Positions 43,526 through 43,969 of a stretch of 43,969 bases of DNA are shown here, in pieces. The DNA is from Halogeometricum pallidum JCM 14848. Lineage in GTDB: Archaea > Halobacteriota > Halobacteria > Halobacteriales > Haloferacaceae. The position numbers and the translations under genes were made by a program. Within the stretch, counting starts at the first letter, position 1, and every line of letters begins with the position of its first letter. Below the pieces are notes generated by a model, which saw only the letters and a program-made list of their open reading frames with translations, was not told where the DNA came from and did not search any database. Location: NCBI RefSeq assembly GCF_000337095.1, contig NZ_AOIV01000023.1, forward strand, positions 57,535 through 101,503, in the 5' to 3' direction.

Positions 43526-43628
43526 AGCTCACCGTTCGCCGGGCGAGCGCAAAAATGGAACGCGGGTGGACGCGGACCGGACCCGACGCGGACGCGGCGC
43601 TCCGATTACCTGAATTGAGGCGCTAAGG

Positions 43629-43734
43629 CCCCTTCCTCAACGAGCGAGTGGAGCGAGTGAGTAGGGAGGGGATACAGCGTTGACGAGACGCGCTGCGTCT
43701 CGTCCGCACACGAGAGCAAAGCTCTCGTGAACGC
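43629..43734 (+). other. Structured non-coding region: hairpin plus potential three-way junction
   Basis: Hairpin A pairs CCCCTTCCT (43629-43637) with AGGGAGGGG (43663-43671), one G-U pair; its loop holds GAGCGAGTG twice. GCGTT (43677-43681) pairs with AACGC (43730-43734) and encloses two perfect hairpins. B: GACGAGACGC (43682-43691), loop GCT, GCGTCTCGTC (43695-43704). C: CACGAGAGC (43709-43717), loop AAA, GCTCTCGTG (43721-43729). Arms B and C join the outer helix with a 4-nt linker, CGCA. The DNA could be transposon-end hairpins for TnpA recognition, or a structured RNA. Confidence 0.65.
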
Positions 43735-43791
43735 CGCACGGTTCTCAAACACGTCCGTCACTCAGCCCACAGGCCCACGTAATCGCAACTC

Positions 43792-43797
43792 TTATTT
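43792..43797 (+). promoter_or_regulatory. TATA box of the RHH-tnpB pair
   Basis: TTATTT is centred about 27 nt before GTG 43821, predicting a leaderless transcript for the RHH gene that continues into tnpB. Confidence 0.6.
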
Positions 43798-43820
43798 GTG
43801 TAGTTTGTGTATATTGTGGT

Positions 43821-43943
43821 GTGGCAACGCGCAAGAACATCTCTATCCGCGACGACCAAGCCGAGTGGGTTGAGGACAACCACCTCAACCTCTCGTCGTT
43901 CGTCCAAGAGAAACTTGACGAACTCATCGAAGAACGCTCGTAG
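43821..43943 (+). CDS. Small ribbon-helix-helix protein ahead of tnpB
   Basis: This 40-residue protein (GTG start) reads MATRKNISIRDDQAEWVEDN, then HLNLSSFVQEKLDELIEERS. The first strand (RKNISIRDD), a helix (QAEWVEDN), a turn and the second helix (LSSFVQEKLDELIEE) fit the RHH fold of CopG/Arc-type DNA binders. Such small proteins are found directly upstream of tnpB in many haloarchaeal elements. The stop TAG is followed at once by the tnpB ATG, so translation is probably coupled. Codons such as CAA, AAA, CTT and GTT differ from the neighbours, consistent with transfer. It probably binds the element's ends or promoter; this is inference. Confidence 0.8.
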   Translation: MATRKNISIRDDQAEWVEDNHLNLSSFVQEKLDELIEERS

Positions 43944-43969
43944 ATGAACTACAACTACAGGTATCGGCT
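43944..43969 (+). CDS. tnpB: TnpB family RNA-guided endonuclease, N-terminal fragment
   Basis: The last 26 bases encode MNYNYRYR plus two bases of the next codon, directly after the RHH stop (TAG then ATG). This start is characteristic of haloarchaeal IS200/IS605 superfamily TnpB (IS1341-type transposase orf), an RNA-guided nuclease related to Cas12. Only eight residues are visible, so the call rests on the start sequence and on the RHH gene before it. The catalytic RuvC residues and the 3' omega-RNA region would lie beyond the window. Confidence 0.7.

Follow-up and report, generated by a model that had tools for sequence, protein, structure and literature searches.

The window, a 43,969-nucleotide stretch of the Halogeometricum pallidum JCM 14848 genome (G000, contig C23, positions 57535-101503), ends at an assembly gap that falls within a transposon, and all features described here lie on its plus strand. 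The sequence shared with a second genomic copy of this transposon (L009 on contig C27, 92% identical over the region) begins at window position 43606 with TTAC (43606-43609), which from IS605 biology is presumed to be the insertion target directly 5' of the left end. The left end itself (43610-43678), for which homologous blocks occur in many haloarchaeal genomes, carries a near-terminal palindrome (43629-43671) and is followed by a 54-bp double-hairpin (DH) element (43679-43732), by the remaining 5' region of the transposon (43733-43820), which is kept between copies, by a small ORF of 40 amino acids with a GTG start at 43821 (43821-43943), and by the start of tnpB (43944-43969), which is cut by the window end and continues in L008 (672-1953). 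The complete element reads TTAC, left end, small ORF, tnpB and a right end finishing ...GGTAGGGTGGGGTAGTTCAC. The 40-aa ORF had no Pfam or NCBIfam match, and therefore, its designation as ribbon-helix-helix (RHH)-like reflects the appearance of its sequence only; the TnpB of a related copy in the same genome (L011) matched PF07282, PF01385, and NF040570 in Pfam and NCBIfam. By eye, TTATTT at 43792-43797 looks like the promoter of the RHH-like ORF, in which case the DH would lie upstream of the transcript. The last 92 bases of the window (43878-43969) recur after the N in the contig (L008 513-696), and since the copy on C27 has the same pattern, it appears to be a contig overlap left uncollapsed and not a genuine tandem repeat.

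The sequence-only reading had described three strong hairpins ahead of the RHH-tnpB pair, together with an outer helix enclosing the last two, and all four stems are present. In the first hairpin, CCCCTTCCT (43629-43637) pairs with AGGGAGGGG (43663-43671) over 9 bp with one G.T pair. The second, of 10 bp with the loop GCT (43682-43704), and the third, of 9 bp with the loop AAA (43709-43729), are both perfect and are closed by loops of three bases. They are enclosed by a 5-bp outer helix, GCGTT (43677-43681; repeat I5) with AACGC (43730-43734), whose 5' side is composed of target bases and the end of the inserted element, the latter reading GTT-hairpin 1-CGCA-hairpin 2-AAC. A three-way junction, as had also been suggested, is possible on this pairing, and the outer helix does form in the RNA fold of the minus strand; it is absent, however, from the RNA fold of the plus strand and from the DNA fold of the 54-mer alone. 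Folded as DNA, the double hairpin reaches −22 kcal/mol compared to −9.9 ± 2.1 kcal/mol for shuffled sequences (z = −5.8; 0 of 200 shuffles as stable), and the first hairpin alone is within chance by energy (z = −0.3 versus shuffles). Two separate features adjoin here, a transposon left end and a 54-bp insertion.

The first hairpin belongs to the left end of an element of the IS200/IS605 family (IS1341-type), where it forms the near-terminal palindrome; the element carries the RHH-like ORF and tnpB and lacks tnpA. Other left ends, in a comparison of about 40 copies, start after TTAC or TTAG, and the palindrome is kept across 33 haloarchaeal left ends, often with a rebuilt apical stem. In eight genomes (G008, G015, G018, G021, G025, G026, G033, and G048), the left-end block lies 70 to 200 bp upstream of a Y1 tnpA on the same strand. 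The left end is presumably recognised as single-stranded DNA by a Y1 TnpA acting in trans. A comparison with the 3' end of tnpB, proposed earlier as a check for an omega-RNA relationship, was positive for the first hairpin (same-strand local score of 30 to 33 versus shuffled maxima of 24 to 25) and for neither of the other two. The subterminal palindromes at both element ends are alike in the same strand, and this likeness of the first hairpin to the right end is expected, since paired IS200/IS605 ends resemble each other. In a deletion derivative (L006 on contig C21, 1200-1631), the left end and its double hairpin are still present, and of tnpB only the 3' end is left. Further double hairpins break tnpB itself, both in the element of the window (58 bp; L008 1012-1070) and in the 92% identical copy (L009 1024-1081, 1861-1917, and 1988-2044). 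With these interruptions, one of which shifts the frame, both tnpB genes are probably pseudogenes.

That the two extra hairpins were inserted into a pre-existing left end follows from empty sites. L011, a related element, has a left end of ATACAGC↓GCCGTC (the arrow marks the point of insertion) with nothing in between, and homologous left ends in G031, G040, G056, and G010 are empty at exactly the same point, with matches that stop at query position 80 and start again at 133. Furthermore, other left ends (L280, L139, L052, L121, L144, L156, and L166) have DHs at the same point that are inverted, paired in tandem, or of another sequence type. The DH of the window matches the covariance model of the family, which was built from four copies (alignment A2), with 33.8 bits and an E value of 1.4e-6. 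The impression that the structure exceeds what a simple transposon end needs was right, and the excess is a separate mobile element. Very probably, what was inserted between ATACAGC and GCC, and now forms a composite with the IS200/IS605 left end, is a tiny (54-bp) mobile DNA element belonging to a double-hairpin family of haloarchaea.

The covariance-model search found about 20 DH sites in this genome. Matches are present in 51 of 60 relatives, with around 40 copies in two of the genomes; these counts, like all DH counts in the genome tables, take in both strands of a near-palindromic element. When the phylum was sampled, matches were found in 19 of 24 haloarchaea and, marginally, in one genome among 124 other members. 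The latter (G101), outside the order and the only non-haloarchaeal genome to match, has two marginal matches (best E value, 7.8e-6) that may be due to chance or contamination. Scanning 84,980 species genomes with a pattern gave at least 80 records, and all 80 among the matches listed are haloarchaea or archaeal metagenome-assembled genomes; no DH was found in viral contigs with the strict pattern. The family is essentially confined to haloarchaea. Units are 45 to 59 bp long, mostly 57 or 55 bp, with GTY...RAC ends (GTC or GTT starts in 138 of 167 units), arms of mostly 9 to 10 bp, and loops of three bases in 313 of 334 cases, closed by C-G. The two hairpins are separated by spacers such as TGCCA, AGCCA, TGGCA, TAGCA or CGCCA. 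The outer pairs of the hairpin stems are G-C, A-T or C-G. The helix that encloses both hairpins is short, and the innermost of its pairs is complementary in just 84 of 167 units. In arrays, two to four units abut head to tail. Two groups of copies are recorded here as side observations: in G006 and G033 (L084-L100, L101-L120), many DHs sit at one position of another, uncharacterised repeat (GCTGCGCC↓GGACCTCGTGTCCGGCACC), and a 55-bp subfamily (GTTCACGAGAGC...AGCCA...TGATGAC) recurs in GGCGCAGGC↓GACGCAAGCACCGCA sequences of Halorubrum (L141, L163, L176, and other loci).

Precise insertions could be read at several places. Apart from the 54-bp unit in the left end, these are a 58-bp unit at tnpB site B (L008 and L009 compared to L011) and a 57-bp unit at tnpB site C, which is present in L009 and L011 and absent from L008. 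No target-site duplication was seen at sites A, B, C, and E, the empty sites that were read. The target is GNC↓GNC, with C at −1 in 81%, G at +1 in 83%, G at −3 in 68%, and C at +3 in 69% of cases, and complementary bases at −2/+2 are in slight excess (56 versus 38 ± 5). Insertion also reaches a chromosomal gene. A DHH-family gene (the family and the neighbouring ribosomal protein genes were named by eye) carries an in-frame 57-bp unit (VDETRRVSSANQNASRSGD), equal to 19 codons, in this genome (L012 1992-2048, contig C45) and in G004, and the gene is without the unit in G003, G002, G001, and G011. The copy in G004 has one-sided stem changes with the reading frame still open, indicating that pairing decays once a DH is just coding sequence. 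Identical DHs at two places always had related flanks (60 to 100% identity), i.e., they shared the same repeated host. Identical copies in unrelated sites were not found, and we therefore infer jumping from presence/absence and from the unrelated hosts.

Compensatory changes, which the sequence-only reading had proposed to look for, are abundant: alignment A4, which was fitted to the model, contains 557 double-sided changes, and 96.4% of its pair cells are paired. To these can be added an unbiased set of 123 units, which were found by the outer letters of hairpin 2 only. Here, the dinucleotides at the free tip can pair in 113 units (48 on average after shuffling), and hairpin 1, which was not part of the search, forms with 8 bp or more in 98, compared to 12 of 4,760 random positions. 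Pairs nearly always change on both sides, the free cells comprising 473 Watson-Crick, 11 G.T, and 8 mismatched pairs. An RNA would tolerate G.U pairs. Loops of the GNA type (on one strand) account for 206 of 313, compared to a position-shuffled mean of 116 and a maximum of 137, and GNA triloops are reported to form DNA minihairpins of unusual stability (PMC6479982, citing Yoshizawa et al. 1997). With stems that change on both sides and yet stay paired, a scarcity of G.T, and a preference for C-GNA-G loops, the folded form is probably DNA and not a guide RNA, although these arguments, including that from the loops, are indirect and the scarcity of G.T could partly reflect high GC content and strong selection.

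How might such a small element move? In our model, a DH unit would be recognised as folded DNA: extruded or single-stranded, it could fold through its paired GTY/RAC ends into a three-way junction that holds both ends together and may serve as the intermediate. It would be excised or copied in this form by a trans-acting enzyme that the DH does not encode, and the enzyme would join it at GNC↓GNC without target duplication. Tandem arrays are then accounted for, since the joints newly made, RAC↓GNC and GNC↓GTY, are targets in their turn. Tentatively, we propose that DHs represent a class of minimal mobile DNA in haloarchaea, about 57 bp long, without genes and not described before, in which a three-way junction is recognised by its fold, the stems are interchangeable, and a recombinase other than a Y1 transposase acts in trans on a two-sided GNC↓GNC target.

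A mover that would be compatible with the model of a trans-acting enzyme is the Y1 transposase (TnpA) of IS200/IS605 elements. REPs are thought to be moved by RAYTs, and DHs have hairpin-flanked ends, leave no target duplication, and are found in many copies in IS605 elements; in addition, copy number and Y1 count are weakly positively correlated (rho = 0.28; p = 0.06). Nevertheless, we consider a Y1 mover unlikely, if deserving of attention: no Y1 was detected in G010 (34 matches, counting both strands) and G011 (27 matches, counted likewise), nor in G013, G017, G027, and G039, which have fewer matches, and the two-sided GNC↓GNC target differs from the one-sided tetranucleotide of Y1 elements. 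Y1 TnpA as the sole mobiliser was set aside as less likely on account of these genomes with DH copies and no Y1 match.

The mobile double hairpin has its closest known kinds in the bacterial CGTC-tagged REP dimers, which fit best and include the Rickettsia RPEs, and in the small mobile repeats (SMRs) of Haloquadratum. According to Di Nocera et al. 2013 (PMC3733652), CGTC-tagged REPs, among them Rickettsia RPE-4 and RPE-6 and Neisseria dRS3, are without a known transposase and are reported from bacteria only, with no archaeal members. As described there, they share with DHs a C-GTC tag next to the palindrome, head-to-head dimers with the tags outside (mostly, in the REPs), a short CCA-like tail, varied but complementary stems, and, in the Rickettsia RPEs, in-frame insertion into genes. 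The same text gives the REPs loops of 4 to 5 bases, stems of 8 to 9 bp starting with A-T, and partners mostly 20 to 100 bp apart, whereas DHs have 3-base GNA-type loops, stems of mostly 9 to 10 bp, and partners only 4 to 6 bases apart in a unit of mostly 54 to 58 bp. DHs further differ in their GNC↓GNC target and head-to-tail arrays, the REP families having been compared by description only. Like DHs, the REPINs, or GTAG REPs mobilised by RAYTs, move two palindromes as one unit; they have a GTAG tag and linked RAYT genes in contrast to the GTY/RAC ends and the lack of a consistent Y1 association in DHs. In fungal mitochondria, double-hairpin elements also use two adjacent hairpins as a mobile unit, in a host unrelated to haloarchaea. 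Integron attC sites have similar-looking GTT/AAC ends and were dismissed since their orientation and core letters do not fit (compared by eye).

We found no archaeal description of the DH architecture in the literature, the SMRs being set apart by description only. It is doubtful that DHs are simply the SMR-A and SMR-B of Haloquadratum walsbyi already described. In PMC3119063, SMRs are, like DHs, noncoding haloarchaeal sequences without a known enzyme; they are short, have prominent inverted terminal repeats, make no target duplication, and show a preference for IS605 elements and PATEs, where they sit in near-terminal palindromes. A tandem pair of DHs would be about 110 bp long, the approximate length of SMR-A. 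The same source gives SMRs a length of 80 to 110 bp (80 bp for one type of SMR-B), the copies of any one type being commonly >95% identical, and the text consulted describes no double-hairpin architecture; DHs, by contrast, are mostly 54 to 58 bp long with highly varied stems. On these descriptions, to which the SMR-DH comparison is confined, a partial identity of DHs with SMRs is possible. The haloarchaeal PATEs and IS1341-type elements of the same source resemble the deletion derivative L006, and they also have a counterpart of the left end's near-terminal palindrome; they account for the first hairpin only.

A further explanation is that the whole structure is integral to the left end and that the two extra hairpins evolved in place as recognition hairpins for TnpA or the RHH protein. 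About 15 of the left ends fetched do bear hairpins at this very point, and these have travelled with the element to several loci (window, L009, and L006). We regard it as improbable that they evolved there, as the occupants of this point belong to at least five sequence types, in both orientations and including tandem pairs, at least 14 homologous left ends are empty, one of them (L261) adjoining tnpA, and such elements are also present inside tnpB, as tandem copies, and in a chromosomal gene that is unrelated. Some of the left ends were fetched because they bear a DH, and the ratio of occupied to empty sites is therefore no estimate of the true ratio.

No family of Rfam, those of omega-RNA and sotRNA (RF02656 and RF02657) included, matched the window region, L008, L009, L011, or L006, a weak test inasmuch as the tnpB 3' end fails it too. 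Matches to tick-borne flavivirus xrRNA and CRISPR-DR20 were below the gathering score and outside the element, and were rejected as chance hits of GC-rich sequence. The structured RNA suggested by the sequence-only reading, be it a guide-RNA-like scaffold or a leader controlling RHH-tnpB, is very improbable despite the strong stems with compensatory changes and the resemblance of the left-end palindrome to the tnpB 3' end, where omega-RNA lies, since the signature is DNA-like (G.T no commoner than mismatches, C-GNA-G loops enriched), DHs are inserted at unrelated places, including coding frames, in both orientations and in tandem, Rfam has no match, the structure lies 5' of RHH-tnpB whereas omega-RNA and sotRNA lie at the 3' end of tnpB, and the likely RHH promoter, by eye, is downstream of the DH.

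In sum, the double hairpin in the left end of the H. pallidum transposon is best seen as a mobile DNA element in its own right. Hairpins that adjoin tnpB are not necessarily guide RNA, and DHs explain the broken look, or the odd in-frame peptides, of some tnpB genes in haloarchaea. An enzyme that moves the CGTC-tagged palindromes of bacteria has long been lacking, and a compact archaeal counterpart with defined ends, a defined target, clean empty sites, and a high copy number in culturable haloarchaea makes this question directly testable.
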